Below, one piece after another: positions 8,203 to 22,928 of a stretch of 34,012 nucleotides of DNA. Position 1 is the first letter of the stretch, and every line of letters starts with the position of its first letter. Position numbers and translations under genes: made by a program. The stretch is from Holophagaceae bacterium. Lineage in GTDB: Bacteria > Acidobacteriota > Holophagae > Holophagales > Holophagaceae. The notes beneath the pieces were generated by a model. The model had not been told where the DNA came from, made no database searches, and worked only from the letters and a program-made list of their open reading frames with translations. The DNA lies in the NCBI GenBank assembly GCA_025361955.1, contig JANYIU010000126.1:1-34012 (forward strand), written 5' to 3'.

Positions 8203-8352
8203 ACGGGAACGGGAGCAGAGTCCGCTAGGTTTCCTATCGGAAACGTGCGCCGGATCTCAATAAACCTGCGTCCCGAGCCTTTATAATCCCTGGTCGGGGG
8301 AGAATCCCAGGGTGCGATGGCTGGAAGAGTAGTTGATCCAAAAAGTATCATT

Positions 8353-8368
8353 CAACGGATAATTCACA
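8353..8368 (+). promoter_or_regulatory. Conserved upstream block CAACGGATAATTCACA (rex1 leader)
   Basis: The 16-mer CAACGGATAATTCACA occurs here and again, identical, at 14125-14140 upstream of rex2. It ends in TTCACA, the half-site of the palindromes closer to the genes. Exact conservation within otherwise diverged leaders suggests a binding site, possibly an upstream half-operator or an activator site. The function is inferred. Confidence 0.55.
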
Positions 8369-8451
8369 CCTAATCCTACGCCTACCTAGGAAACGGTCCG
8401 CTCATGAAAGGCTTTGCTCATTGAGCCTGGATCTCAATAAGGCATCAGGTC

Positions 8452-8507
8452 ATGAATGAGGTTGACAATGCGGAGAGAGCCGTTGGAGACTATTCGTTAC
8501 AGAATGA
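8452..8507 (+). promoter_or_regulatory. Putative promoter block of rex1-hydBAC
   Basis: ATGAATGAGGTTGACA is followed 17 bp later by GGAGACTATTCGTTACAGAATGA. The same two pieces occur with identical spacing at 14224-14279 (ATGAAAGGGGTTGACC and GGAGACTAGTCG..., 22 of 23 identical in the second piece). TTGACA at 8462 would serve as a -35. No good -10 lies 16-18 bp downstream (GACTAT is 20 bp away), so an activator or a non-standard sigma factor is possible. Conservation supports function; the transcription start is not determined. Confidence 0.5.
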
Positions 8508-8536
8508 GTAGATACCACTTGTTACTGTTTGAAACG

Positions 8537-8554
8537 ATGTGAATTAATTCACAT
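8537..8554. promoter_or_regulatory. Rex-type operator palindrome upstream of rex1
   Basis: ATGTGAATTAATTCACAT is an 18-bp perfect palindrome ending 13 bp before the rex1 ATG. Rex repressors bind sites of the type TTGTGAA-N6-TTCACAA. The arms TGTGAA and TTCACA are matched here, but the spacer is 4 rather than 6 bp. Its place at the rex start suggests NADH-sensitive autorepression of the whole operon. Binding is inferred. Confidence 0.65.
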
Positions 8555-8567
8555 TCCAAGGATTGAG

Positions 8568-9239
8568 ATGAACCTCTCGAACAAGGTCATGGGACGGTTG
8601 ACGCGCTACCGTGCGCTGCTGACCGAGTACTTCCCCAAGGAGAAGACCTATGTCTTTTCCCACGAACTGGCCGCGATGGTGAGCTTGTCCGCATCGCAGG
8701 TTCGGCGCGATCTGATGTGCCTTGGGTACTTCGGCGTCCCGAGATACGGCTACGAAGTCGTTGAATTGATCAAGCATATCAATAGGGTCCTGGACGCCGG
8801 CAAGCTCCACAATGTTGCGGTCGTGGGAGCGGGCAATCTCGGACAAGCCTTGATGACCTTCCTGGAGAGCAGACGAGCCACGCTGAGGATCATCGCGGCT
8901 TTCGACGATGATCCTAGGCTGTCGAATCGGGTGATCAACGGCGTCCCGTGTCATCCCATGGAAAGGCTCGAAGAGCTCGTCGAGGGCAAGGAGATCCGTA
9001 TCGCGATCCTTTGCGTGCCTGGCTCAGCAGCCCAGCGGGTCGCGGACCGGCTCGTGAAGGCCGGGATCAAGGGGATCCTCAATTTCGCACCCGTGCCCAT
9101 CCGACTTCCGGTGGGCGTCGCCCTCGAAGAGATCGACATAACCAGTCACCTGGAAAGGGTTGCCTTTTTCACCACCACTCGTGCCACTCCGTCAAAGGAG
9201 AGACGCCCTACCCAGGTGCGTCTGCGCGCGAGGAGTTAG
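8568..9239 (+). CDS. rex: Redox-sensing transcriptional repressor Rex (copy 1)
   Basis: A 223-residue protein. The ATG at 8568 is chosen over 8529 because it aligns with the start of the second copy (MNxSxKVMGRLxRYRALL) and has an AAGGA ribosome site; the longer form would also translate through the operator. The N-terminal winged helix carries the Rex recognition region (LSASQVRRDLMCLGYFGVPRYGY). The C-terminal Rossmann domain has VAVVGAGNLGQAL (GxGxxG) and the dimer-swap helix near the end (ALEEIDITSHLERVAFF). Rex releases DNA when NADH is high, which typically induces fermentation and hydrogenase genes. It is followed after 153 bp by hydB1 on the same strand. It is a close paralogue of the gene at 14314. 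Confidence 0.95.
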   Translation: MNLSNKVMGRLTRYRALLTEYFPKEKTYVFSHELAAMVSLSASQVRRDLMCLGYFGVPRYGYEVVELIKHINRVLDAGKLHNVAVVGAGNLGQALMTFLESRRATLRIIAAFDDDPRLSNRVINGVPCHPMERLEELVEGKEIRIAILCVPGSAAQRVADRLVKAGIKGILNFAPVPIRLPVGVALEEIDITSHLERVAFFTTTRATPSKERRPTQVRLRARS

Positions 9240-9392: not shown

Positions 9393-11576
9393 ATGTCCAC
9401 TTCGGTGACTCAATTCTTCGAGGGACTGCAGTCTCGCGTTCTGGAGGCCACAGCCGCGCGAAGGCTGCAGGAGAAGATCGTGATCCAGGTCGGCTCGGCC
9501 ACCTGTGAGCACGCGGCTGGTTCCTTGGACGTCATGGATGAGTTCGTCAAGCATGTGAAATCATCCGGCCGTCAGGACGTGGTTCTGCGCAAGACCGGCT
9601 GCACCGGACGCTGCAGCAAGGAGCCCATCGTAGGGGTCACCGTTCCGGGCCAGCTGCCGGTGAAGTACGAGCGAGTGAATCGCGAGCTGGTGCACAAGAT
9701 CTTCACCAGCCACATCCAGGACGGGGCTCCGGTCGTAGAGAGCGCCCTGGACGACAGCCTTTCCGAGATCCACAAGAGCGAGTTCGTTTTCTGCGCTGGT
9801 GTCCGCTGCGGTCTGGAAGGCGAGAACGTCATGATGCACAAGTTCGCTCAAAAGCTGCGGGATCGGGCTCCCCATCCCGAGACCATCAAGGTGTCCAAGG
9901 TGGGCTGCTTCGGCGCTTGCAGCCAGGAGGACCGGGGCAAGTGCGCCTATATCCTGCACCGTCCCTCGAAGGCGATGTACCGCATCCATTCCGAGCAGGA
10001 TCTTGACGAGATCATCGCCACCCAGGTTCTGGGCGGGCAGCTGGTGGAGCGCCTCCTGGCGACGGATCAGCTCGTGAGCAAGGACTTCTTCGACATGTAC
10101 GGCGACGTTGCCTTCTTCAATCGCCAGAGTCGAGTGGCCCTGAGAAACTGTGGGGTCGTGGACCCTGAGAGCTTGGACGAGTACGTCACCTACGGTGGCT
10201 TCAAGGCACTGGGCACCGTACTCACCAACCGGGATCCCCAGTGGGTCATCAACGAAGTCCTCAAGGCCAGGCTCCGGGGCCGGGGGGGTGGCGGTTTCCC
10301 CACGGGCAAGAAGTGGCAGATGGCCTTCGATCAGAAGGAAACCACCCGCTACCTGATCTGCAATGGTGACGAAGGCGATCCCGGTGCGTTCATGGATCGT
10401 GGCATGCTGGAATCCGACCCCTTCAACATCGTCGAAGGCATGATCATCGGCGCTTACGCCATCCAGGCCCAAAAGGGCTTCCTCTACATTCGTGCCGAGT
10501 ACCCTTTGGCCATCAAGCGCATCCAGAACGCCATCGATCTCAGTCGTGCGTCTGGCCTGCTGGGCCAGGACATCATGGCTTCGGGTTACAGCTTCGATCT
10601 GGAGATCCGTCTGGGTGCCGGAGCCTTCGTGTGCGGCGAGGAGACGGCTCTCATCGCCTCCATCGAGGGCGAACGCGGCCAGCCCGGCCTGCGTCCTCCC
10701 TATCCAGTGGAGAAAGGTCTCTGGGGCAAGCCCACCTGCATCAACAACGTTGAGACCTTCGCCAACATCTCCGCGATCATTAATTTCGGCGGCGACTGGT
10801 TCGCGCGCATCGGCACAGCCGAGAGCGGGGGCACGAAGGTGTTCGCCCTGGCTGGCAGGGTGAAGCATACGGGCTTGGTGGAAGTGCCCCTCGGCACGAC
10901 CCTCAAGGATGTGGTCTTCGACATCGGTGGCGGGGTCCAGGACGACAAGCCTCTGAAGGCGGTCCAGACCGGGGGTCCCGCAGGCGGCTTCATCCCCGCG
11001 AAGTGGTTGGATATGGAGGTGGACTTCGCACCGCTCGCCAAGGCCGGTTCCATCATGGGCTCCGGCGGCATGATCGTCCTCTCCGAAGAGGACTGCATCG
11101 TCGATATCGCCAAGTTCTATCTCTCCTTCACCACGGATGAATCCTGCGGCAAATGCACCCCCTGCCGAGAGGGTACGACCCGCATGCAGGAGATCCTGGA
11201 GCGCATCACGATCGGTACTGCGGTGATGGGCGACTTGGACAAGCTCGAGCGGCTTGCCCAACTCTGTCAGCAGACCTCCCTCTGCGGTCTCGGTCGCGCT
11301 GCACCGAACCCGATCCTCAGCTCTCTGGATCACTTCCGCGACGAGTACCTCGAGCACATCATTGACAAGCGTTGCCGTTCCAAGAAGTGCGTGGCGCTGA
11401 TCCGCTACGTCATCAGCCAGGAGCTGTGCATCGGCTGCACCGTGTGTGCCCGCAACTGCCCCGTGGAGTGCATCTCCGGCAAGCGGAAGGAAGTCCACGT
11501 CATCGACCAGGAGCGCTGCATCAAGTGCGGGCAGTGCTTCCAGGTTTGCCGCTTCGACGCTGTCGAGCGGGGCTGA
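9393..11576 (+). CDS. hydB: NuoF-like (HydB/HndC-type) flavin subunit of [FeFe]-hydrogenase, with two N-terminal ferredoxin-like domains
   Basis: A 727-residue protein that carries FMN and the NADH site of a trimeric, probably electron-bifurcating hydrogenase. Two thioredoxin-like [2Fe-2S] domains come first. One has Cys38, 70 and 74 (SATCEH, GCTGRC). The other has Cys134, 139, 172, 176 and 184 (FCAGVRC, GCFGAC, KC). The NuoF core has the FMN/NADH glycine loop GRGGGGFPTGKKW (296-308), NGDEGDPGAF, GAGAFVCGEETAL, and the [4Fe-4S] ligands SCGKCTPC (585, 588, 591) with Cys631. Two C-terminal [4Fe-4S] motifs follow, CIGCTVCARNCP (679-690) and CIKCGQCFQVC (709-719). Typical HydB proteins have one N-terminal domain and about 600 residues, so the extra domain is like HndB fused to HndC. 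It is followed 33 bp later by hydA1. Confidence 0.93.
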   Translation: MSTSVTQFFEGLQSRVLEATAARRLQEKIVIQVGSATCEHAAGSLDVMDEFVKHVKSSGRQDVVLRKTGCTGRCSKEPIVGVTVPGQLPVKYERVNRELVHKIFTSHIQDGAPVVESALDDSLSEIHKSEFVFCAGVRCGLEGENVMMHKFAQKLRDRAPHPETIKVSKVGCFGACSQEDRGKCAYILHRPSKAMYRIHSEQDLDEIIATQVLGGQLVERLLATDQLVSKDFFDMYGDVAFFNRQSRVALRNCGVVDPESLDEYVTYGGFKALGTVLTNRDPQWVINEVLKARLRGRGGGGFPTGKKWQMAFDQKETTRYLICNGDEGDPGAFMDRGMLESDPFNIVEGMIIGAYAIQAQKGFLYIRAEYPLAIKRIQNAIDLSRASGLLGQDIMASGYSFDLEIRLGAGAFVCGEETALIASIEGERGQPGLRPPYPVEKGLWGKPTCINNVETFANISAIINFGGDWFARIGTAESGGTKVFALAGRVKHTGLVEVPLGTTLKDVVFDIGGGVQDDKPLKAVQTGGPAGGFIPAKWLDMEVDFAPLAKAGSIMGSGGMIVLSEEDCIVDIAKFYLSFTTDESCGKCTPCREGTTRMQEILERITIGTAVMGDLDKLERLAQLCQQTSLCGLGRAAPNPILSSLDHFRDEYLEHIIDKRCRSKKCVALIRYVISQELCIGCTVCARNCPVECISGKRKEVHVIDQERCIKCGQCFQVCRFDAVERG

Positions 11577-11609
11577 TTCTCCGTCCCCCACTGACCCAGG
11601 AACGCGACC

Positions 11610-13376
11610 ATGACCGAACCAATGATCAAACTGACCATCGACGGGGAACTCCTCGAGGTGCCCGCTGGCACCACCGTCATGAAGGCGGCGGAAAAATTGG
11701 GCATCAACATTCCCCGCCTCTGCTACCACCCCGATCTGAGCCTCGAAGGTGCCTGCCGCGTCTGCGTCGTGCAGGTAGAGGGCTTCAATCACTTCATCGC
11801 CTCCTGCAGCCAGCAGGTGTGGGAGGGCATGATGGTCCAGACCAACAGCCCCCAGATCCGGCAGGCTCGCCGGGATATCCTGGAACTCCTCTTGGACAAC
11901 CATCCAAAGGACTGCCAGACCTGCGAGCGCGATGGCAATTGCGAACTGCAGCGCCAGGCCTATCGCCTGGGTGTGCGCGAGCGGCTCTTCGAGGGCAAGC
12001 GCAAGCAGTATCCCCAGGATGAGAGCAGCAAATCCGTGGTCCGCAATCCGGAGAAGTGCATCCTTTGTGGGCGCTGCATCCGGGTCTGCGCCGAGGTGCA
12101 GGGTGTCCAGAACCTCAGCCAGCACGGCCGAGGTTTCAATACTGTCGTTGGCCCCGCCAATCTGGGCCCCATGGACGAGAGCGCCTGCATCCAGTGCGGT
12201 CAGTGCGTGGCGGTCTGCCCCACAGCGGCCTTCCTGGAGAAGGATCACACCGAGCGCGTGTGGGAAGCCTTGAGCGGAGCCGCTGGCAAGAAGCACTTGG
12301 TGGTTCACACGGCCCCCGCCATTCGCGCGACCATCGGCGAGTCCTTTGGCTTCCCTTTGGGCACACCGGTGACCGGCCAGCTGGTGACGGCGCTGCGACG
12401 GCTGGGTTTCGATGCCATATTCGATACGAACTTCGGCGCGGACCTCACCGTCATCGAAGAGGGAAATGAGTTCCTGAAGCGCTTGAATGGGGAGGGGCCC
12501 CTGCCGCTGCTCACCAGTTGCAGTCCCGGCTGGATCAACTTCATGGAAAAGTTCTACCCAGAGATGATCCCCCTTGCTTCCACCTGCAAGTCCCCGATGC
12601 AGATGACGAGCACCCTCATCAAGACCTACTACGCCGAGCGGAAGGGCATCGATCCGAAGGACATCTTCGTGGTGGCCATCATGCCTTGCGTGGCTAAGAA
12701 ATACGAAGCGGCGCGCCCCGAGCAGCTGCTCTCTCAAGGTGAGACTGTCACGGATGCCGTGTTGACCACTCGGGAACTGGCCTGGATGATCAAATCTTAC
12801 GGCATTGACTTCGCCAACTTACCGGAAGGCGAGTACGACCGTCCCCTGGGCGTTTCCTCGGGTGCGGGGGACATCTTCGGCACCACTGGCGGCGTCATGG
12901 AAGCTGCGCTGCGAACCGTCGCCGTCAAGCTGACGGGCGAGGAGCTGGGGCCATTGGTGTTCGAGGCTGTCCGCGGCATCGTTGGCCTCAAGGAGGCTAC
13001 CGTGAGCATCGGTGGCCAGGAGATCAACGTAGCGGTTTGCGACGGGCTCACGCATGCGAAGAAGGCTCTGGCCTACATCAAGAGTGGTGAGAAGAACTAC
13101 CATCTCGTCGAGATGATGGCGTGTCCTGGCGGCTGCATCATGGGTGGCGGACAACCCTATCCGCCCTTCGAGATGGACGTGCTGGACCCTGAACTCGCCA
13201 AGCTGCGCGCCAAGGCCCTCTATTCCGTGGATGCCCACAAGCAATTGCGCCGTTCCCACGAAAATCCAGCTATCACGAAGCTCTACGAGGAATACATCGG
13301 TGAGCCGAACGGCGAAAAAGCGCACGAGCTTCTGCATACCCATTATCAAGCCCGCATGCCTAGGGGGATCCGGTGA
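11610..13376 (+). CDS. hydA: [FeFe]-hydrogenase catalytic subunit (HydA/HndD type), copy 1
   Basis: A 588-residue protein. The N-terminal NuoG-like part holds a [2Fe-2S] cluster (Cys38, 49, 52, 66), a His-ligated [4Fe-4S] cluster (HPKDCQTCERDGNC; His98, Cys102, 105, 111) and two [4Fe-4S] clusters (CILCGRCIRVC and CIQCGQCVAVCP). The H-cluster domain has all three signatures: TSCSPGW (Cys304), MPCVAKKYE (Cys360) and MACPGGCIMGGGQP (Cys505, 509). It also has the complete C-terminal small-subunit-like tail (HENPAITKLYEEYIGEP). It reduces protons or oxidises H2 in the cytoplasm, with electrons shared with HydB and HydC. In L1 the second residue after the ligand is Ser, not the Cys of TSCCPGW enzymes; I recall this as common in HndD-type subunits. 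The ribosome site is AGGAA. Confidence 0.96.
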   Translation: MTEPMIKLTIDGELLEVPAGTTVMKAAEKLGINIPRLCYHPDLSLEGACRVCVVQVEGFNHFIASCSQQVWEGMMVQTNSPQIRQARRDILELLLDNHPKDCQTCERDGNCELQRQAYRLGVRERLFEGKRKQYPQDESSKSVVRNPEKCILCGRCIRVCAEVQGVQNLSQHGRGFNTVVGPANLGPMDESACIQCGQCVAVCPTAAFLEKDHTERVWEALSGAAGKKHLVVHTAPAIRATIGESFGFPLGTPVTGQLVTALRRLGFDAIFDTNFGADLTVIEEGNEFLKRLNGEGPLPLLTSCSPGWINFMEKFYPEMIPLASTCKSPMQMTSTLIKTYYAERKGIDPKDIFVVAIMPCVAKKYEAARPEQLLSQGETVTDAVLTTRELAWMIKSYGIDFANLPEGEYDRPLGVSSGAGDIFGTTGGVMEAALRTVAVKLTGEELGPLVFEAVRGIVGLKEATVSIGGQEINVAVCDGLTHAKKALAYIKSGEKNYHLVEMMACPGGCIMGGGQPYPPFEMDVLDPELAKLRAKALYSVDAHKQLRRSHENPAITKLYEEYIGEPNGEKAHELLHTHYQARMPRGIR

Positions 13377-13942
13377 GCCACTGCTGCCAAGTTTCGACCG
13401 ACAACTGGGAAGACGTGAAAGCAAAGTGCCTGACCGCGCTTCCCGAAGACATCGTCAACTACATTGATGACCACAAGGGCGACGAGCACGCTGAAAGCAA
13501 TCTCATCGCCATCCTGCACAGGGTCCAGCGGCACTTCGGCTATCTGGGGCAGGAACAGATGAATGCCGTCGCCCAGTTGGCCCAGATTCCTCTGGCCAAG
13601 GTGACCGGTGTCGCGACGTTCTATCATCTGTTCCGGCTGCAGCCCCGTGGCAAGCACGTCATCAGCGTCTGCATGGGCACGGCCTGCTACGTGAAAGGCG
13701 CTGAAAAACTCAGCCAGCGGCTCATGGACGAGCTGGGCATCCACTATGGTGAGACCACCAAGGACGGGATGTTCTCTCTGGACAACAGCCGCTGCCTGGG
13801 CACGTGCGGCCTGGCGCCGGTGATCATGGTGGATGATCAGGTCTATGGACCCGTGACGCCCAGCGAGATCACCATCATCCTGGAAAAGTACATCAAGCAG
13901 CCAAGGGCTGCCGCTCCGAAAGCCGCACTCGCTGTGCAGTAG
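13373..13942 (+). CDS. hydC: NuoE-like [2Fe-2S] subunit of [FeFe]-hydrogenase (HydC), copy 1
   Basis: A 189-residue protein with a GTG start overlapping the hydA1 stop (GTGA). After a helical N-terminal bundle (LIAILHRVQRHFGYL, GVATFYHLFRLQPRGKH) comes the thioredoxin-like ferredoxin domain, with ligands Cys100, Cys105 (CMGTACYVKG) and Cys141, Cys145 (CLGTCGLAPV). This is the 24-kDa/NuoE pattern. It should pass electrons between the HydB flavin and the HydA clusters. The order B-A-C differs from the C-B-A order of the second operon. An Ala/Pro/Lys-rich tail of about 15 residues follows the fold. It is the last gene of operon 1 before a hairpin terminator. Confidence 0.94.
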   Translation: MSHCCQVSTDNWEDVKAKCLTALPEDIVNYIDDHKGDEHAESNLIAILHRVQRHFGYLGQEQMNAVAQLAQIPLAKVTGVATFYHLFRLQPRGKHVISVCMGTACYVKGAEKLSQRLMDELGIHYGETTKDGMFSLDNSRCLGTCGLAPVIMVDDQVYGPVTPSEITIILEKYIKQPRAAAPKAALAVQ

Positions 13943-14035: not shown

Positions 14036-14124
14036 CTCGCGTCAAGCAGGCTGGATATGTTTGAAAAATTAGTAAAAAATCAAAATTTACATATAATAGA
14101 TATGTTGATCGTAAAAATATGAAA

Positions 14125-14140
14125 CAACGGATAATTCACA
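14125..14140 (+). promoter_or_regulatory. Conserved upstream block CAACGGATAATTCACA (rex2 leader)
   Basis: Identical to the 16-mer at 8353-8368. Here it lies 174 bp before the rex2 ATG; in the first leader the distance is 199 bp. An additional TTCACA half-site occurs near 14192 (GTTCACATA). Confidence 0.55.
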
Positions 14141-14223
14141 TCTCTTCCATATGGTTCAAAGGGATTGGGCCTAATTGGTGTCGAGGCTTTTGTTCACATA
14201 CCCGATCGAAGAGATTTTCAGTA

Positions 14224-14279
14224 ATGAAAGGGGTTGACCTTTATTGAGGCATTGGAGGAGACTAGTCGTTACAGAATGA
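14224..14279 (+). promoter_or_regulatory. Putative promoter block of rex2-hydCBA
   Basis: ATGAAAGGGGTTGACC, then 17 bp, then GGAGACTAGTCG with CGTTACAGAATGA following, aligning without gaps to 8452-8507 of the first leader. TTGACC (14234-14239) is a -35 candidate. As in the other copy, no standard -10 sits at 17 bp. The operator follows 3 bp after this block, which places Rex at or just after the transcription start if the block is the promoter. Confidence 0.5.
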
Positions 14280-14282
14280 AAC

Positions 14283-14302
14283 GATGTGAAATCTTTCACA
14301 TC
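14283..14302. promoter_or_regulatory. Rex-type operator palindrome upstream of rex2
   Basis: GATGTGAAATCTTTCACATC has 9-bp perfect arms around a 2-bp centre and ends 11 bp before the rex2 ATG. The TGTGAA-N4-TTCACA core and position match the palindrome at 8537-8554, so the same repressor, or both Rex copies, could control both operons. Confidence 0.65.
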
Positions 14303-14313
14303 ACAAGGATCAA

Positions 14314-14967
14314 ATGAACATCTCGACCAAGGTCATGGGACGACTGGCGCGCTATCGTGCGCTGCTCACTGACTATTTTCCGAAGGAGAAGACCCACATC
14401 TTCTCCCATGACCTCGCCGCGATGATGGGACTGTCCGCTTCCCAGATCCGACGGGACCTGATGTGTCTCGGCTATTTCGGGGTCCCCCGCTACGGCTACG
14501 AGATCTCGGAACTGGTGAAGCACATCAATAACGTCTTGGATGCCAGCAAACTCCATCACGTGGCGGTGGTCGGGGCTGGGAATCTGGGCCGGGCCTTGAT
14601 GACCTTCCTGGAAAGCCGCCGGGCCACCCTGAAGATTGTCGCCGCCTTTGATGACGATCCTGACAAGGCGAACCGGGTGCTCAATGGCGTCCCCTGTTTT
14701 CACATGGATCTGGTTGAAGAAGTAGTGAAACGCGACGACATTCGCATCGCCATCCTTTGCGTCCCGGGCGCAGTCGCCCAGCGGGTCACGGACCTCCTCG
14801 TCAAGTCCGGAGTGAAAGGTATCCTGAACTTTGCCCCGGTTCCCATCCGCATTCCCGTCGGAGTCGTTCTCGAAGAGATTGACCTCACCAGTGCCCTCGA
14901 AAGGGTCGCTTTTTTTACTAATAACCGCGCCAACGCGCCAAAGGAGAAACGGCATGCCGACCGTTAA
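14314..14967 (+). CDS. rex: Redox-sensing transcriptional repressor Rex (copy 2)
   Basis: A 217-residue protein, colinear with copy 1 from MNISTKVMGRLARYRALL onward and very similar throughout. It has the winged-helix recognition region LSASQIRRDLMCLGYFGVPRYGY, the NADH-binding loop VAVVGAGNLGRAL, and VLEEIDLTSALERVAFF for domain swapping. The main differences are in the last 15 residues, which are polar and probably disordered. The 3' end overlaps hydC2 by 14 bp, so this copy is translationally coupled to its hydrogenase, unlike copy 1. Sequence alone does not show whether the two copies have divided targets or form heterodimers. Confidence 0.95.
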   Translation: MNISTKVMGRLARYRALLTDYFPKEKTHIFSHDLAAMMGLSASQIRRDLMCLGYFGVPRYGYEISELVKHINNVLDASKLHHVAVVGAGNLGRALMTFLESRRATLKIVAAFDDDPDKANRVLNGVPCFHMDLVEEVVKRDDIRIAILCVPGAVAQRVTDLLVKSGVKGILNFAPVPIRIPVGVVLEEIDLTSALERVAFFTNNRANAPKEKRHADR

Positions 14968-15439
14968 AAGCGTTGAGACCATTCTGAAGGAACACCCGAA
15001 CGCCGGGCGGGATCACCTGATCCCGATCCTCCAGGAGGTCCAAGAGTCGGAAGGATTCCTGTCCCAGGAATCCATCACCAAGGTCGGGAGGGCGCTGAAC
15101 CTGCCATCCAGCAAGATCTTTGGTGTCGCGACCTTCTTCAATATGTTCCGCTTCCAGCCCAAGGGTAAGTACCACGTGATGGTTTGCCGTGGCACCGCCT
15201 GTCACGTCAAGGGCTCCGGGAAGTCCCTGGACATGGTCACCAAGACCCTCAAGATCCAGCCTGGCGAGACCAGCCGCGACAAGCTGTTCAGCCTTGAGAT
15301 CGTGGCCTGCATGGGCGCATGCGGACTGGCTCCGGTGGTGAACATCAACGGCCAGTTTTACGCCAAGATCTCCCCGATGAAGCTGCAGCGCATCATCGAA
15401 GAGTGCCGCGAGAAGGAGCAGACTCATGCCAACGCTTGA
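14954..15439 (+). CDS. hydC: NuoE-like [2Fe-2S] subunit of [FeFe]-hydrogenase (HydC), copy 2
   Basis: A 161-residue protein. The start MPTVKSVETILKEH at 14954 has an AAGGAG ribosome site at 14941 and gives normal family length; a longer reading from 14831 lies inside rex2 and is discarded. It has the helical N-terminus (HLIPILQEVQESEGFL, GVATFFNMFRFQPKGKY) and the [2Fe-2S] ligands Cys78, Cys83 (CRGTACHVKG), Cys119 and Cys123 (CMGACGLAPV). It overlaps both rex2 and hydB2 by 14 bp. It is shorter than copy 1, which has extra residues at both ends. It should connect HydB2 and HydA2. Confidence 0.95.
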   Translation: MPTVKSVETILKEHPNAGRDHLIPILQEVQESEGFLSQESITKVGRALNLPSSKIFGVATFFNMFRFQPKGKYHVMVCRGTACHVKGSGKSLDMVTKTLKIQPGETSRDKLFSLEIVACMGACGLAPVVNINGQFYAKISPMKLQRIIEECREKEQTHANA

Positions 15440-18400
15440 CGCTAAGGTCGATCGCGGATTCTGCTGGGATACCCCGGCCCAGCCCGCATCCGCACTCCTG
15501 AATGCTCTCAAGAGCGGCCCGTTCAAAGCCGTCTCCGGCACCAAACTCACTGAGCTCATCGCCTCCCTGCGCCGCGAAACTGTGACCCGGCCCGTGATCT
15601 ACGTGGGCGCGGGCACTTGCGGCCTGGGCGCTGGCGCCGACAAGACCCTCGCACAGATCAAGGCCTTCTGCGCCTCCAAGCAGCTGGAAGTGGAAGTCAA
15701 TGAAGTGGGCTGCGTGGGCCTCTGCTCCGAAGAGCCGGTCGTGGACATTCAACTGCCCGGTCTGGCCCGGGTCTCCTTCGGCAATGTGACGGCCGACAAG
15801 GTCGATGGCTTGCTCGAGCAGGTCTTCGCCGGCAAGATCCCCAGTGACCTACTCCTGGGTCAGCACCGCAACGATCGCCACAAGATCTACGACAAGGTAG
15901 CCTACCTGGATCAGCACCCCTTCCTGGCTCTCCAGAAGCGCTGGGTGCTGGCTAATTCGGGCCTCATCGACTTCAACTCCATCGACGAATACATCGCCCG
16001 GAGCGGCTATTCGGCCCTCTTCAAACTCCTTCACAGCAAGACCCGCCAGGAGGTGGTCGACGAGCTGTTGGCGAGCGGCTTGCGGGGGCGTGGCGGTGGC
16101 GGTTTCCCCACGGGCAAGAAGTGGCAGATGGCCCTCAACACGCCGAGCGAGCAGAAGTACATGATCTGCAACGCTGACGAAGGTGATCCTGGTGCGTTCA
16201 TGGATCGCGCGGTCTGCGAATCCGATCCCCACCGGCTCCTGGAAGGCATGATCACCGGCTGCTACGCGATTGGTGCCACCAAGGCCTACATCTATATCCG
16301 GGCCGAGTATCCCCTGGCCATCCAGAATCTCAAGACGGCCATCGCCAAGGCCAAGGAATACGGCCTCCTGGGCCAGAACATCCTGGGCAGTGGCTTCAAC
16401 CTCGAGATCATCATCAAGATGGGTGCGGGTGCCTTCGTGTGTGGCGAGGAAACCGCCCTGATGCACAGCATCGAAGGCAAGCGTGGCATGCCGCGCCCCC
16501 GTCCTCCCTATCCCATTCAGTCCGGTCTCTTCGGCAAGCCCACGGTGATCAATAACGTGGAGACCTTCGCCAACGTCCAGACCATCATGCAAAACGGTGC
16601 GAAGGCATTCGCCGCTATGGGGACCGAAGGTTCCAAGGGCACCAAAGTGTTCGCCATGTCTGGCATGGTCCGCCGCACAGGCCTCGTGGAGGTTCCCATG
16701 GGCACCTCCATCCGCAGCGTCGTCTTCAGCGTGGGTGGCGGTATCCCCAACGGCAAGAAGTGCAAGGCCGTCCAGATCGGCGGCCCTTCGGGTGGCTGCA
16801 TCCCCGAGTCTCACCTGGAACTGGCCTGCGACTATGAAGAGTTGAAGAATTTCGGCGCCATCATGGGCTCCGGCGGCCTTGTGGTCCTTGACGAAAACAC
16901 CTGCATGGTGGATCTCGCCAAATTCTTCATGGAATTCATCCAGTCTGAGAGCTGCGGCAAGTGTATCCCGTGTCGTGAAGGCACGCGCAGAATGCTGGAG
17001 ATCCTCAAATCCATCACCCAGAATCGCAAGAGCGAGGAAGGCATTGATTCCCTCATTCGTATGAAGGGCGTGATGCTTCTCCAGGAACTGGGCGAAAGCA
17101 TCCGTCGCAGCTCGCTATGCGGCCTTGGCCAGACGGCTCCGAACCCGGTGCTGTCCACCCTGAAGTGGTTCCGGGAGGAATACGAAGCCCACATCTACGA
17201 TCGCCGCTGCCCGTCCGGGTCCTGCCGTGAGCTCGTGGGCGCCCCCTGCCAGTCCGCCTGCCCCGTGGGGACAGAAGTATGGCGCTACGTGGCCCACATC
17301 GGCCTGGGCGAATACGAGGAAGCCTATCGCGCGATCCGCTCCGCGAATCCGTTCCCCTCCGTCTGCTCCCGCGTTTGCAACCACCCTTGCGAGACCGTCT
17401 GCCGCTGCGGCACCACGGGCGGAGAGCCGATCGCCATCCGGCACCTCAAACGCTTCGTGGTGGATCGCGTCGAACCTGCCTCCTACAAGTACGGCATCCG
17501 GGTCCGTCCCAACGCGCCGCGTATCGCCGTCATCGGTGCCGGCCCCGCCGGTCTCACGGCCGCCCACAGCCTATCCATCCTGGGCTACAAGGTCACGGTG
17601 TTCGAGCAGGAAGCCAAGGCCGGTGGCATGCTGGTGTCCGCCATTCCTGAATACCGCCTCCCCCGCCCGACCCTTCAGAAAGAGATTGATTCGCTGCTCA
17701 ATGAGAATGTCGAGGTCAAATACAACCAGGCCCTGGGCAAGGACTTCACCGTCGCAAGCCTGAAGAAGGACGGCTACAGCGTCGTGTATGTCGCCATCGG
17801 TTCCCAGCGCAGCAAGAAGCTGGGCCTCCCTGGCGACGATGCTGAAGGAATTCTCCCCGGTATCGAGTTCCTCAAGGCCTACAATCTGCACGGCTTGGAA
17901 ATCGCTAAGGGCCGCGTTGGCATCATCGGTGGCGGCAACAGCGCCCTCGATGCCGCCCGGGTGGCCATCCGCCAGAAGAACGTGGATTCCGTGACGGTCT
18001 TCTACCGACGCACGCGCGGCGAGATGCCCGCCTACGCCGAAGAGATCGACGCGGCTCTGGAAGAGGGCATCAAAGTCGAGACCCTGGTGGCTCCTGTGGG
18101 CGTCAAGTCCCAGAACGGCAAGCTCACCGGCATCGAGTTCCAGCGCAACGAGCTGGGCGAGCGGGATGACAGCGGCCGTGCCAGGCCGGTACCCCTTCCG
18201 GGGAGCGAATTTGTCGCGGAAATGGACACCTTGGTGGTGGCCATCAGCGAGGAGCCGGAGACAGAAACCCTCAATGGCCTCAAGACCAGCCGCTGGGGTT
18301 CCCTGGTCATCAACCCGGAATCCTATATCACCAACGAAGCGGGTGTCTTTGGCGGCGGCGACGTCGTCACCGGCCCCAGCACGGTCATCGAGGCCATCGC

Positions 18401-18680
18401 CGCGGGCAAGAATGCCGCGATCATGATGGATCGTTTCATGACCGGCAAGCAACTCAAGAAACTCACCAAAGTGGTACTGCCCACGGTGTACGTCGCCCCG
18501 GTCAGTGCAGAGGATGAAGGCGAAAGCATTGGCCGCATTCACCCCGAACATCTCCCCGTGGAAGCACGCGTGAAGAACTTCAAGGAAGTGGATCTCTGCC
18601 CCTCCGAGAATCACGCGATGTGCGAAGCGCGGCGCTGCCTGCGCTGCGACATCGAATTCACCCAACCGGCTATGAATTGA
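15426..18680 (+). CDS. hydB: HydB (NuoF-like) subunit fused to a GltD/NfnB-like NAD(P)H oxidoreductase
   Basis: A 1084-residue fusion. Residues 55-135: thioredoxin-like ferredoxin domain (GTCGLGAG Cys65; GCVGLC Cys96, 100). Residues 150-590: NuoF core with GRGGGGFPTGKKW (221-233), NADEGDPGAF, GAGAFVCGEETAL and [4Fe-4S] ligands Cys510, 513, 516, 565. Where HydB1 has a two-cluster ferredoxin, this protein continues with a GltD-type module. It has a cysteine-rich Fer4_20-like region (PCQSACPVGTEV 607-618; CSRVCNHPCETVCRCG 647-662), an FAD loop GAGPAG (704-709), a nucleotide loop GGGNSA (835-840) followed by YRRTR (860-864, arginines typical of NADPH binding in this family), the second FAD motif GVFGGGDVVTGP, and a terminal CEARRCLRCD. 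This suggests a hydrogenase with an NADH-type and a separate NADPH-type flavin site. The AAGGAG ribosome site lies within hydC2. Confidence 0.93.
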   Translation: MPTLDAKVDRGFCWDTPAQPASALLNALKSGPFKAVSGTKLTELIASLRRETVTRPVIYVGAGTCGLGAGADKTLAQIKAFCASKQLEVEVNEVGCVGLCSEEPVVDIQLPGLARVSFGNVTADKVDGLLEQVFAGKIPSDLLLGQHRNDRHKIYDKVAYLDQHPFLALQKRWVLANSGLIDFNSIDEYIARSGYSALFKLLHSKTRQEVVDELLASGLRGRGGGGFPTGKKWQMALNTPSEQKYMICNADEGDPGAFMDRAVCESDPHRLLEGMITGCYAIGATKAYIYIRAEYPLAIQNLKTAIAKAKEYGLLGQNILGSGFNLEIIIKMGAGAFVCGEETALMHSIEGKRGMPRPRPPYPIQSGLFGKPTVINNVETFANVQTIMQNGAKAFAAMGTEGSKGTKVFAMSGMVRRTGLVEVPMGTSIRSVVFSVGGGIPNGKKCKAVQIGGPSGGCIPESHLELACDYEELKNFGAIMGSGGLVVLDENTCMVDLAKFFMEFIQSESCGKCIPCREGTRRMLEILKSITQNRKSEEGIDSLIRMKGVMLLQELGESIRRSSLCGLGQTAPNPVLSTLKWFREEYEAHIYDRRCPSGSCRELVGAPCQSACPVGTEVWRYVAHIGLGEYEEAYRAIRSANPFPSVCSRVCNHPCETVCRCGTTGGEPIAIRHLKRFVVDRVEPASYKYGIRVRPNAPRIAVIGAGPAGLTAAHSLSILGYKVTVFEQEAKAGGMLVSAIPEYRLPRPTLQKEIDSLLNENVEVKYNQALGKDFTVASLKKDGYSVVYVAIGSQRSKKLGLPGDDAEGILPGIEFLKAYNLHGLEIAKGRVGIIGGGNSALDAARVAIRQKNVDSVTVFYRRTRGEMPAYAEEIDAALEEGIKVETLVAPVGVKSQNGKLTGIEFQRNELGERDDSGRARPVPLPGSEFVAEMDTLVVAISEEPETETLNGLKTSRWGSLVINPESYITNEAGVFGGGDVVTGPSTVIEAIAAGKNAAIMMDRFMTGKQLKKLTKVVLPTVYVAPVSAEDEGESIGRIHPEHLPVEARVKNFKEVDLCPSENHAMCEARRCLRCDIEFTQPAMN

Positions 18681-18689
18681 GGTATCGCC

Positions 18690-20411
18690 ATGTTTGCCAT
18701 TGAAGCGAACGGCCAGAAAATTGAGGCCAAGAAGGGCGAAACGATCCTACAGACCCTCACGAGAGCCGGGATCAACGTGCCCACGATCTGCCATATGGAA
18801 GGGCTGCTGCCCTCCGGAACCTGCCGCATGTGCGTTGTCGAAGTTGAAGGCTTCGGCGGCCTGGTTCCCTCCTGCTCCCACCCCGTTGCCGAGGGCATGA
18901 AGATCCGGACGAATACGCCGGAAGTCATGCAAACCCGGAAGACGATCATCGACCTGCTTCTGAGCAACCATCCGGACGACTGCCTTTATTGCGCCCGGAA
19001 CGGCAACTGTGACTTGGCCAAGCTGGCCGCCGATAACGGCGTCCGGGATCGCACCTTCCACGGTGAACGCACCCATCGCCCCAAGGACATCTCCAGTCCC
19101 GCCATCATCCGGGACCCGGATAAGTGCATCCTCTGTGGCAAGTGCGTCCGCATGTGCGAGGAAATCCAGGGTGTCTCCGCCATCGATTTCGTCAATCGCG
19201 GGTCCAAAGCCTATGTCGGGACGGCCTTCAACGAGGGCCTGAACGTCTCCAGCTGCATCAGTTGCGGTCAGTGCATCCTGGTCTGTCCTACCGCCGCCCT
19301 CTCCGAACACAAGTACATTGACGAGGTGCTCCAGGCCCTGGCCGACCCCGAGATGATGGTAGTGGTCCAGCATGCCCCAGCGGTGTCCGTCTCGATCGCC
19401 GAGGAATTCGGTTTCAAGCCCGGCACCGACTTTGATGGCAAAATGGTTGCCGCCCTTCGCCGGGTGGGCTTCGATCGGGTCTTCGACACCTCGTTCGCCG
19501 CCGATCTCACCATTATGGAAGAGGGTTCGGAACTGGTGCATCGCGTCCAGAACAACGGCCCGCTGCCTATGTTCACCAGTTGCTCGCCGGGCTGGGTCAA
19601 GTTCGTCGAGCAGTTCTACCCTGAATTCCTGCCCAACGTGTCCACCTGCAAGAGCCCTCAGCAAATGATGGGTGCGGTCATCAAGTCCTTCTTCGCTGAG
19701 AAGGAGAACCTCGATCCCAAGAAGATCGTGAGCGTCTCCATCATGCCTTGCACGGCCAAGAAGTTCGAATGCGGACGCCCTGAAATGGGCCGTGATTTCG
19801 TGCCGGATGTGGACTTCGTGCTGACCACCCGCGAGCTGGCCGAACTGTTCCGGATCACAGGCGTGAATCCCGCGGCCATCGAGCCCGAGCCTCCCGATAA
19901 TCCCTTTGGTGAGCGTTCCAGCGCGGGCAAGCTGTTCGGAGCTTCTGGAGGAGTGATGGAAGCCGCCATCCGCAGCGCCTACTTCCTGCTCACGGGCGAG
20001 GAGTTGAAAGAATACAAGATTCAGGATCTGCGCGGAATGAAAGGCTCCAAAGAACTGCGCGTCAAGATTGGTGATCTTGAAGTGGGCGCCGCCGTGGTCT
20101 CCAGTCTCGGCCAAGCGCGGAAGCTGATGGATGAGATCAAGGCCGGACGCAGCGACATCCACTTCATCGAAGTCATGACCTGCCCCGGCGGTTGCATCAA
20201 CGGTGGCGGTCAGCCCATTGGCGCTGATCAGGAAGCGATCAAGGCGCGCATGAACGCGCTCTACCAGATCGACCGTGACGATCGTCTGCGGGTCAGCCAC
20301 AAGAACGAATGGGTGCAGCGACTGTATACTGAATTCCTAGGCAAGCCGCTGGGTCATAAGAGCCACGAGCTGCTCCATACTCACTACGAAAAGCGCGAAG
20401 TTCTGCTGTGA
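18690..20411 (+). CDS. hydA: [FeFe]-hydrogenase catalytic subunit (HydA/HndD type), copy 2
   Basis: A 573-residue protein of the same plan as copy 1. [2Fe-2S] ligands are Cys34, 45, 48, 62. The His-ligated cluster is HPDDCLYCARNGNC (His94, Cys98, 101, 107). Two [4Fe-4S] motifs are CILCGKCVRMC and CISCGQCILVCP. H-cluster signatures are TSCSPGW (Cys298), MPCTAKKFE (Cys354) and MTCPGGCINGGGQP (Cys498, 502). The C-terminal small-subunit segment is complete (RVSHKNEWVQRLYTEFLGKP). All ligands are intact, so it should be catalytic. The ATG follows hydB2 by 9 bp with a GAGGT ribosome site. It is followed after 19 bp by a receiver gene, so the signalling genes are probably in the same operon. Maturases (HydE, F, G) would be needed from elsewhere. 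Confidence 0.96.
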   Translation: MFAIEANGQKIEAKKGETILQTLTRAGINVPTICHMEGLLPSGTCRMCVVEVEGFGGLVPSCSHPVAEGMKIRTNTPEVMQTRKTIIDLLLSNHPDDCLYCARNGNCDLAKLAADNGVRDRTFHGERTHRPKDISSPAIIRDPDKCILCGKCVRMCEEIQGVSAIDFVNRGSKAYVGTAFNEGLNVSSCISCGQCILVCPTAALSEHKYIDEVLQALADPEMMVVVQHAPAVSVSIAEEFGFKPGTDFDGKMVAALRRVGFDRVFDTSFAADLTIMEEGSELVHRVQNNGPLPMFTSCSPGWVKFVEQFYPEFLPNVSTCKSPQQMMGAVIKSFFAEKENLDPKKIVSVSIMPCTAKKFECGRPEMGRDFVPDVDFVLTTRELAELFRITGVNPAAIEPEPPDNPFGERSSAGKLFGASGGVMEAAIRSAYFLLTGEELKEYKIQDLRGMKGSKELRVKIGDLEVGAAVVSSLGQARKLMDEIKAGRSDIHFIEVMTCPGGCINGGGQPIGADQEAIKARMNALYQIDRDDRLRVSHKNEWVQRLYTEFLGKPLGHKSHELLHTHYEKREVLL

Positions 20412-20430: not shown

Positions 20431-20820
20431 ATGACATTGACAAAGAAGATTCTTGTTGTAGATGACGACATCGATCAGCTGGATCATGTCGCCATGATCC
20501 TGAAAGCGGAAGGCTACGACGTGATCAGGGCTCAGGGACAGAAGGAGGGCGAGGATGCCATCCTCACCACGATTCCCGATCTGGCCATCCTTGATCTCAT
20601 GATGGAGAACATGGACTCCGGTTTCGTGCTCTGCAATCAGATCAAGCGCCTGTATCCCGAAACCCCGGTGATCCTGCTGACAGCTGTCAAATCCGCGACC
20701 GGCTTGGATTTCTCACCCAAGTCCAGCGGCGCGGCAAGCTGGATCAAGGCCGATGTGCTACTCGATAAGCCGGTCCGGCCCGAGCAGCTCCGGAATGAAG
20801 TCAAGCGCCTCATGGCGTGA
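20431..20820 (+). CDS. Single-domain response regulator (CheY-like receiver)
   Basis: A 129-residue stand-alone receiver: acidic pair Asp11/Asp12 (VVDDD), phospho-acceptor Asp55 (LAILDLMMEN), Thr84 (LLTA) and Lys113 (LDKP). All catalytic positions are present and there is no output domain. An unusual short insertion (KSATGLDFSPKSSGAASWIKAD) lies between the Thr and Lys strands. It sits between hydA2 and the hydrogenase-like sensor kinase, so the kinase is a natural phosphodonor. The output must be a protein interaction. A role in relaying a redox or H2 signal is inferred from context. Confidence 0.9.
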   Translation: MTLTKKILVVDDDIDQLDHVAMILKAEGYDVIRAQGQKEGEDAILTTIPDLAILDLMMENMDSGFVLCNQIKRLYPETPVILLTAVKSATGLDFSPKSSGAASWIKADVLLDKPVRPEQLRNEVKRLMA

Positions 20821-20826
20821 ACTGTC

Positions 20827-20860
20827 GCCGGGGAAGCCACATCCGTGTGGCTGCCCCGGC
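20827..20860 (+). other. Hairpin between receiver and sensor-kinase genes
   Basis: GCCGGGGAAGCCACA, a TCCG loop and TGTGGCTGCCCCGGC form a 15-bp stem with one A-G mismatch. It lies 6 nt after the receiver stop and 13 nt before the sensor-kinase ATG. No T run follows, so it may be an attenuator or an mRNA end-protecting element that lowers kinase expression relative to the upstream subunits. Confidence 0.5.
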
Positions 20861-20873
20861 GGAGAGGACCTTG

Positions 20874-22928
20874 ATGAGCGAATGTGGGGAAACCCGGCCA
20901 GAAAAGGCACTGGAATCTCTTTGCTTCGTCAAAGAGGTCAAGAACCGCTGTCGGATTTGCTACACCTGTGTGCGCGAGTGCCCCGCCAAGGCGATCAGTA
21001 TCTCCAAGAGCCAGGCCATCGTCGTTCCCGAGCGCTGCATTGGGTGCGGTAACTGTCTCAAGGTCTGCAGTCAGCAGGCCAAGAAGATGGTTTCCTCGAT
21101 CGAAGAGGTGGAAGCCCTGCTCAAGAGTGGGGCTTCCGTCGCTGCCTGCCTTGCTCCCAGCTTCCCGGTGGAGTTCCAGGCCGAGTTTGATTTCAGGGTG
21201 CTGGTCGGCATGACCCGTGCCTTGGGTTTCGATTTCGTCACTGAGGTGGCCTTCGGGGCCGATCTGGTGGCGGATCGTTATCGTGAAGCCCTGATGTACA
21301 ATAAGGGACGCCAATACATCGCCACCACGTGCCCTGCCATCGTGGGTTTCGTGGAACGCTACCATCCCGATCTCGTGCCCTTCCTCTCTCCCATCGTATC
21401 CCCGATGGTCGCCATGGCCCGAGTCCTGCGCTCGCTGCACGGCCCCGAATTGAAAATCGTGTTTGTGGGTCCCTGCGTCGCGAAGAAAGCCGAGGCCATG
21501 GACCCCGACGTCATCGGCGGACCGGACGCGGTGCTGACCTTCCCGGAATTGCGCGAGATCTTCCAGCATGCGGGGATCACCTCAAACGTTGCGGATCCCT
21601 GTGATTTCGATCCTCCCCAGCCCCGGCGTGGTTCGCTGTTCCCCATCAGTCATGGCATGCTGCAGGCCGCCGAGATCCACGAAGATCTGCTGACCAACGA
21701 TGTGGTGGCCACGGATGGACTTCACAACTTCATGAATGCCCTGAACGAGTTCGCGGCGGGCGGGATGGAGGCGAATCTGGTCGAACTGCTCTCTTGCAAT
21801 GGCTGCATCGCTGGACCGGGTCTGAGCAGCAAGGAGAACCTCTTCCAACGTCGCGCCCGGGTCAGCCACTACGCCAGCTACCGCGAACGCACCCAGGACC
21901 AGGAGCAATGGCAGAGGTCCATCGATCATTTCGCCAACCTGGATCTGACACGATCCTACCGATCCCTGGACCAGCGGATCACGGACATCGACGAGCATGA
22001 AATCGCCGGGATCATGAAGCGGATGGGCAAGCAGTCGGATGAGGACGAACTCAACTGTGGAGCCTGTGGCTATCATTCCTGCCGCGAGCACGCCATCGCC
22101 ATCCACAAGGGACTGGCCGAGAGCGAGATGTGCCTGCCCTATGTCATCAATGAGCATCTCAAGACCATCGTTCAACTTTCCGACCTGAATGATCGCCTCG
22201 CGACGACCCAGGAGACCTTGATGCACTCTGAGCGTCTGGCTAGCATGGGTCAGCTGGCGGCCGGTGTTGCCCACGAGATCAACAATCCTCTCGGCGTGGT
22301 GATCATGTACACCAATCTCCTGCTGGAGGAGTGCAGCAAGGATACGGAATTCCAGGGCGATCTCCAGATGATCGCGGAGCAGGCGAACCGCTGCAAACGG
22401 ATCGTCGCGGGTCTGCTGGACTTTGCTCGGCAGAACAAGGTGGCCCATCAGCCGGTCGACATCCGCGAGCTGGTGTCAGCAACCCTGTCGAACCTTCCGC
22501 AGCCAGAGAATGTGGAGCTGGAGATCAGCCACGAGGAAATCGATCCCATCGCGGAAGTGGACCGGGACCAGCTGATTCAAGTGCTTCTCAATCTTGTGGT
22601 GAATGCCTATGACGCCATGCCTGATGGCGGCAAGCTCTGCGTGCGCACCAAGGGAGATGACTCCTGGATCACCTTCGAGATCCAGGACACGGGCATGGGC
22701 ATTCCCCGCGAGAACCTGAAGAAGCTTTTCGAGCCCTTCTTCACCACCAAGTTGATGGGGAAGGGGACCGGGTTGGGTCTCCCCGTGGTCTACGGAATCG
22801 TCAAGCTGCACCGGGGTGACATTTCGGTGGAATCCAACGCGGATCCAAGTCTCGGCCCGACGGGAAGTACCTTCCGGGTCAAACTGCCTCGCGAGGCGCG
22901 GACCCATTCCGGAAAGGGCGTGCTGTGA
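20874..22928 (+). CDS. Sensor histidine kinase with [FeFe]-hydrogenase-like domain (HydS/HsfB-like)
   Basis: A 684-residue protein starting at MSECGE (GGAGAGG ribosome site); the longer reading from 20817 would include the hairpin. Two [4Fe-4S] ferredoxin motifs come first ([11 protein letters not shown] 26-36; [11 protein letters not shown] 55-65). Then comes a domain like the hydrogenase H-cluster domain, with altered signatures: TTCPAIVGF (Cys153) for TSCxPx[10 protein letters not shown] (Cys201) for MPCxxKxxE, and [10 protein letters not shown] (Cys308, 311) for the third. A PF04060-like Fe-S motif follows (CGACGYHSC, Cys395-403, with Cys420). The C-terminus is a histidine kinase: HEINNPLG (His467), N-box [16 protein letters not shown] and GKGTGLGL. 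It has no membrane segment, so it is cytoplasmic. It fits the sensory hydrogenase group proposed to report H2 or redox state. The ligand sensed here is inferred. Confidence 0.88.

Follow-up and report, generated by a model that had tools for sequence, protein, structure and literature searches.

The window, the whole stretch of 34,012 nucleotides that was analysed, is one entire contig (G000:C209) of a Holophagaceae genome (3.06 Mb in 322 contigs, 89.7% complete). It contains two consecutive [FeFe]-hydrogenase operons, each headed by a rex gene:

8568 to 9239, + strand: rex1, redox-sensing repressor Rex, recognition helix QVRRDLM
9393 to 13942, + strand: operon 1 past rex1, with NuoF-like (9393-11576), [FeFe] hydrogenase of NCBIfam group A6 (11610-13376) and NuoE-like (13373-13942) genes
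14314 to 14967, + strand: rex2, recognition helix QIRRDLM
14951 to 20411, + strand: operon 2 past rex2, with NuoE-like (14951-15439), NuoF/GltD-like fusion (15426-18680) and [FeFe] hydrogenase of group A6 (18690-20411) genes

Downstream of operon 2, the gene at 20817-22928 (+ strand) encodes an [FeFe]-hydrogenase-like domain fused to a histidine kinase; the FeFe_hydrog_B1 match of this domain falls below the cut-off of that model. On reading, its flanking genes at 20431-20820 and 22925-24094 encode a receiver-only and a receiver-kinase protein, and the set at 20431-24094 is likely a sensory hydrogenase two-component set with no obvious DNA-binding output. A third [FeFe] hydrogenase of the same type (50% to HydA1) is encoded on another contig (G000:C89:12340-14148), which has no Rex site at up to two mismatches.

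Rex1 and Rex2 scored 204.9 and 205.0 bits against the NF003995 model (cut-off 126). Both are sequence relatives of Rex proteins with solved structures and carry VGAGNLG, the NAD-binding glycine motif of the NAD-binding domain. In a quick FastTree tree the hydrogenase-linked Rex proteins grouped apart from canonical Rex (support 0.98), and with few exceptions the recognition helix in this clade reads Q[IV]RRD[LI]M. The idea that the RRD helix is exclusive to the hydrogenase clade proved wrong, as RRDF occurs in Leuconostoc and relatives among the lactic-acid bacteria.

We compared the leaders of rex1 and rex2 (leaders 1 and 2) with each other and with those of UBA1801 (G001 = L033), a 71% complete MAG of the same genus and the nearest relative among the genomes compared. 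The elements discussed here, with operators and promoter as predicted, are:

8332 to 8368, + strand: block C of leader 1, GTTGATC..CAACGGATAATTCACA, including the 16-mer at 8353-8368
14104 to 14140, + strand: block C of leader 2, about 21/37 identical to UBA1801, with 127 bp to GGTTGAC in both
8443 to 8461, + strand: block A position in leader 1 (..GGTCATGAATGAGG), partial conservation only
14215 to 14233, + strand: block A of leader 2, TTTTCAGTAATGAAAGGGG, identical in UBA1801, possible activator site beside the -35
8462 to 8467, + strand: -35-like TTGACA, leader 1
8486 to 8491, + strand: -10-like GAGACT, leader 1, 18-bp spacer, non-consensus
14234 to 14239, + strand: -35-like TTGACC, leader 2
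14258 to 14263, + strand: -10-like GAGACT, leader 2, 18-bp spacer
8494 to 8508, + strand: extra copy of the left part of operator site 1, TCGTTACAGAATGAG, leader 1, tied to a 25-bp insertion
8519 to 8537, + strand: operator site 1, leader 1, TTGTTACTGTTTGAAACGA, 15-wide dyad, N5
14266 to 14284, + strand: operator site 1, leader 2, TCGTTACAGAATGAAACGA, 15-wide dyad, N5
8537 to 8554, + strand: operator site 2, leader 1, ATGTGAATTAATTCACAT, Rex consensus dyad, N4
14284 to 14301, + strand: operator site 2, leader 2, ATGTGAAATCTTTCACAT, Rex consensus dyad, N4

The initial annotation had reported that the two leaders share conserved blocks separated by diverged sequence. Its exact 16-mer CAACGGATAATTCACA is indeed present at 8353-8368 and 14125-14140, TCGTTACAGAATGA at 8494-8507 and 14266-14279, and GGTTGAC at 8460 and 14232. 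The upstream block begins earlier than had been given, with GTTGATC at 8332. From this point (8332/14104) to TCGTTACAGAATGA (8494/14266) the blocks lie on one diagonal, and their identical offset of 5772 means that there is no net indel between 8332 and 8507. Past 8507, leader 1 has 25 additional bases before the common TGAAACGATGTGAA (8530/14277, offset 5747). This insertion resembles a partial duplication of operator site 1 (window 8494-8537); leader 1 has three GTTAC/GTGAA left halves in succession there, including a second GTTAC copy at 8519-8537 that had been missed. At the fixed offset, the 16-mer matches at 16/16 positions and the stretch 8485-8507 at 22/23; identity falls to 35/91 (38%) between these two, in agreement with the divergence noted before, and is 27/129 (21%) upstream of the shared blocks. 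The longest common substring of the leaders is 16, compared with at most 12 in 150 shuffles. Random occurrence of the blocks elsewhere in the genome, which the initial annotation had named as a result that would speak against binding sites, was not observed: the 16-mer has only its two leader copies even when two mismatches are allowed, and TCGTTACAGAATGA is exact only in both leaders, with one further place at one mismatch. Gene conversion between the leaders is not supported, as the coding identity of rex1 and rex2 includes no near-identical stretch.

The palindromes next to the rex genes had been proposed to bind Rex, and they hold up well as such. Both fit TTGTGAAN4TTCACAA with two mismatches each, at the outermost bases, and the gene context agrees, with a rex gene first in both operons. 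Scanning the genome for this consensus at up to two mismatches returned six places, and the inner arms are complete only in the two leaders; hence, we discarded the idea of a Rex regulon elsewhere in the genome.

A further dyad lies next to this site. In all of ten Holophagaceae leaders, four of this genus and six of a sister genus with Rex proteins 50-55% identical, a 15-wide dyad (site 1) begins 18 bp upstream of the Rex consensus dyad (site 2). Site 1 reads CGTnAC-N5-GnnACG in most of them, and CGTTACAGAATGAAACG is this upstream dyad, so that Rex alone can account for both dyads. The CGTTACAGAATGA block, which the initial annotation had ascribed to at least one factor other than Rex, is thus more plausibly the upstream half of a tandem operator for Rex, for which a second factor is unnecessary; a further factor may act at block A (14215-14233) or at block C, the 16-mer block. 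A Rex operator in the strict sense is a 14-wide dyad with a 4-base centre, whereas Holophagaceae site 1 is 15 wide with N5. Because it is one base wider than the solved Rex operator, the Rex dimer may not span it, and its left half in the sister genus is mostly GTAAC rather than GTGAA/GTTAA, which also counts against a Rex site. By position, site 1 would work like a second operator. In four of the six sister-genus genomes (G005, G014, G022, and G032) it is a perfect palindrome, CGTNACA-N3-TGTNACG, and site 2 is weak (with one additional base in G014). This genus shows the reverse, with a stronger site 2 and a weaker site 1, and such reciprocal strength is expected if one protein reads both. 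The exact palindrome occurs four times in eight genomes, each time in a rex leader. With up to one mismatch it occurs at nine places (seven in rex leaders) compared with six for the backward control, hardly above the control, and only the four exact matches are therefore telling.

We also found tandem dyads before rex genes outside the Holophagaceae. Sets of two or three Rex-type dyads, spaced by exactly 17 bp, were first seen in the loci L034 and L047 (Planctomycetota), L042 (Brocadiia), L050 (Fermentibacteria), and L046 (Acidobacteria). The dyad scoring function was written after these loci had been seen and was fixed before new loci were fetched; first-round scoring used a hand-made subset of loci. 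Of 396 Acidobacteriota genomes scanned, 18 encode a close Rex, and these yielded 15 new loci whose leader was usable; L148, whose contig extends only about 22 bp upstream beyond the match, was excluded, leaving 15 of 16 newly fetched loci in the test. A second dyad with a score of at least 8 was present at 17 bp in 12 of the 15 (mean 0.15, maximum 3 in 1000 shuffled sets), and L146 came close with a score of 7.9. The 17-bp pair was absent from the new loci L147 and L151 and from the older loci L058, L064, and L035. Among the RRD-type leaders whose best site scored at least 9 (39 of 65), an offset of 17 was found 17 times and the next commonest offset three times. This offset test took 59 of 80 earlier loci; L033 was handled apart and 20 loci, mostly near-identical ones of lactic-acid bacteria or loci short upstream, were dropped by hand. 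A NuoE gene directly follows rex in L034, L042, L047, L050, L137-L146, and L149, showing that the tandem goes with the NADH-linked hydrogenase operon. A side-by-side layout of predicted Rex sites recurs before related operons in other bacterial phyla. The tandem of the RRD[LI]M clade has its dyads 17 bp apart and those of all ten Holophagaceae leaders are 18 bp apart from start to start; the Holophagaceae operator (18 bp, N5) is accordingly classed as a variant of the 17-bp tandem.

The protein sequences point to a possible reason for the altered half-site. In Thermotoga maritima Rex, the major groove is read by Arg48 and Lys49, the latter contacting Gua7, according to the cited part of the structural report (PMC8836258); by our own mapping, Gua7 is the third half-site base. 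Relative to this protein (PDB 7WB3), and as far as that part of the report and the alignment go, the Rex proteins studied here retain Gln46, Arg48, Gly58, and Tyr64 and differ by K43S, K49R, S52M, R60P, and G61R (PMC8836258). Of the canonical DNA-contact residues Arg48, Lys49, Arg60, and Gly61, only Arg48 is thus retained. The third half-site base is the one that varies in site 1 (GTnAC), in a Rex with Lys49 replaced by arginine, and we infer that the two changes may be tied. A single I/V difference separates the recognition helix of Rex1 from that of Rex2 and the operator cores are nearly identical, which suggests that both proteins probably bind both leaders and regulate both operons.

The initial annotation had also noted that a canonical -10 is missing at normal spacing, which it took as a hint at an activator or an alternative sigma factor, and a sigma-70 scan likewise returned no site in either leader. 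The best fit is TTGACA/TTGACC-N18-GAGACT; set against a sigma-70 promoter with both hexamers near consensus and 16-18 bp apart, its -35 is good and GAGACT is poor. The poor hexamer is kept in three of the four leaders of the genus, and the sister genus has by eye a better hexamer (TAAAAT and similar) at about the same position, together with a poor -35. The conservation of GAGACT and the better sister-genus hexamer favour an ordinary but weak sigma-70 promoter. A reading of site 1 as a promoter element of the ECF, sigma-54 or MerR type was set aside, since by eye no matching second element stood at a conserved distance. Upstream of site 1, three of the six sister-genus leaders (L005, L007, and L008) have by eye a CRP-like dyad TGTGAN6TCACA, and the other three of L005-L010 a looser GTGA-N6-TCAC; these dyads may be CRP-like or Rex-like. 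With a weak -10 here and a poor -35 below a CRP-like dyad in the sister genus, an activator at these promoters is plausible in both genera; in this genus, block A is the leading candidate for its site.

In most tandem loci of the other bacteria the operators overlap or adjoin the best-scoring -10. In L137-L143 and L146 this -10 coincides with the right end of site 1 (CACAAT or CACAGT), 17-18 bp past a TTG-type -35, and L137 and L139-L142 have TTGAC[AT]-N17-CACAAT. The best-scoring -10 of L042, L144, L145, and L149 begins 8-10 bp before site 1, as in leader 2, a position that also fits L047 with a poorer hexamer.

UBA1801 has an orphan rex1 directly before rex2 and operon 2 (L033 4990-6654), with no operon-1 genes between them. 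We did not find the operon-1 hydrogenase in this 71% complete assembly; the best match to HydA1 is at about 50%, indicating that operon 1 is absent both from this locus and from the assembly as a whole. No gap is needed to align the two rex2 leaders over the 127 bp that separate TTGAT from GGTTGAC. Block C of leader 2 matches UBA1801 at 13/20 positions at 14105-14124 and at 8/16 in the 16-mer. The 16-mer is thus more alike in the two paralogous leaders within this genome than in the orthologous leaders from different species, and its last bases form the half-site TTCACA. Block C of leader 2 (window 14109-14149) also repeats part of site 1 (TCGTAAAAATATGAAAC compared with TCGTTACAGAATGAAAC, 157 bp apart) as a 17-nt direct repeat with 76% identity, so that it may be a decayed operator copy. 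Block C may be read either as a degenerate upstream operator copy (AACG plus the right half-site TTCACA) or as a distal promoter-like TTGATC-N19-GATAAT; the incomplete dyad and the 8/16 identity of the 16-mer in UBA1801 argue against a role as auxiliary Rex operator. An RNA stem of TTTTCAGTAATGA (block A) and TCGTTACAGAA (site 1) was set aside, being good by eye only in leader 2 and in the rex2 leader of UBA1801 and decayed in the other two leaders.

From the architecture and its conservation, we consider it likely that the leaders are autoregulated rex-hydrogenase promoters with a tandem Rex operator switched by NADH. RNA polymerase would start from the weak promoter TTGAC-N18-GAGACT, and the operator would lie directly downstream, from about +1 to +35, with site 1 (CGTTACAGAATGAAACG and counterparts) and site 2 (TGTGAAN4TTCACA) centred about 17.5 bp apart. 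Membership in the Rex family predicts repression at low NADH and release at high NADH. At low NADH, Rex1 and/or Rex2 would occupy both sites and block the start of transcription; as NADH rises, Rex would leave and the rex and hydrogenase genes would be made.

Counting against this model are the altered DNA-contact residues of the Rex proteins, the width of site 1 and the loci that lack a 17-bp pair, and it leaves blocks A and C unaccounted for. A dedicated activator bound to block A, upstream of the -35, could offset the poor -10 and would be compatible with the tandem Rex operator. Block A together with the -35, TTTTCAGTAATGAAAGGGGTTGAC, is identical at 24/24 positions between leader 2 and UBA1801, where the background is near 30-35%, and by eye it contains an inverted repeat TTTCA/TGAAA with N4. 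The block had no other match at up to three mismatches in eight genomes, is kept only partly in leader 1 and is absent from the sister genus, and no regulator can be named, so that we regard the activator as a tentative proposal with somewhat less than even chances. Alternatively, site 1 (CGTnACA-N3-TGnnACG) could belong to a different regulator acting beside Rex, such as a response regulator or a CRP/FNR-type or LysR-type protein. Its width and third half-site base differ from those of the Rex dyad, it is the better palindrome of the two in four sister-genus genomes, and the CRP-like dyad further upstream suggests that other regulators are active there. We nevertheless consider a second regulator at site 1 unlikely, because a Rex-type dyad occupies this tandem position in related operons from other families and phyla, and because the four exact palindromes all belong to rex leaders and give no hint of a larger regulon.

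Two further explanations appear very improbable to us. The blocks could act as RNA, in a long leader transcribed from an upstream promoter and folding into the hairpins TCGTT-N9-AACGA and TGTGAA-N4-TTCACA; both dyads could pair, and the second lies by eye just before the ribosome site. However, Rfam 15 gave no match at the gathering score, the dyad arms fit the Rex DNA consensus, leaders that otherwise have little in common keep the 17-bp spacing, and site 2 is unpaired in most sister-genus leaders. Equally improbable are blocks that are mere leftovers of a duplication of the rex-hydrogenase operon and have yet to diverge. Although the leaders are paralogous and colinear, the blocks are 84-100% identical while identity is 38% between them and 21% upstream, and site 2 as well as its junction with site 1 also occurs in another genus.

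The tandem Rex operator may reflect a more general arrangement, which we put forward with more doubt than confidence. A hydrogenase-linked Rex subfamily with an altered recognition helix, Lys49 changed to Arg, could act as paired dimers on a fixed tandem and thereby provide a steeper NADH switch for H2 metabolism in several phyla; the Holophagaceae would have shifted this switch by one base (N5) and then duplicated it with a second hydrogenase operon. A distance of 17 bp from centre to centre would place the dimers on roughly opposite faces of the DNA, sharing an edge base. If this is true, a whole Rex clade uses a paired operator of fixed geometry before NADH-linked [FeFe] hydrogenases. This would provide a sequence rule for finding and testing redox switching of hydrogen metabolism in soil and sediment bacteria that are uncultured, together with a natural series (N4/17 bp compared with N5/18 bp, Lys compared with Arg) for how Rex reads DNA. 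We found no report on Rex in Holophagaceae and none of a 17-bp tandem Rex operator in literature that did not include the main comparative Rex study, and the tandem may thus be in print. What appears to be new is the pairing at a fixed 17 bp, with its variant of 18 bp and N5 in Holophagaceae; two Rex sites per promoter and Rex-controlled hydrogenases were already known.

The system shares with the known Rex/ROP operator TTGTGAAN4TTCACAA the Rex gene, the autoregulatory position, the consensus match of site 2 and a hydrogenase as target. It differs in the helix, RRD[LI]M instead of RKDL, and in having two dyads at a fixed 17 bp (18 bp with N5 in Holophagaceae) instead of one. In Caldicellulosiruptor bescii, Rex controls a hydrogenase and rex itself, according to the cited section of that study (PMC6391272). 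The cited sections on Streptococcus mutans rex and adhE and on Staphylococcus aureus ldh1 describe more than one Rex site per promoter (PMC3441419; PMC2883068), with two at the S. mutans rex promoter (PMC3441419); they describe no tandem at a fixed 17 bp, and none of these operons encodes a hydrogenase (PMC3441419; PMC2883068). Hnd of Solidesulfovibrio fructosivorans is likewise an NADH-linked [FeFe] hydrogenase for which control by Rex is predicted, and a sensory hydrogenase (HydS) is proposed as regulator; as described in the excerpt cited, Hnd has a single predicted Rex site, in contrast to the tandem proposed here, and its control by Rex is only proposed (PMC10084766).
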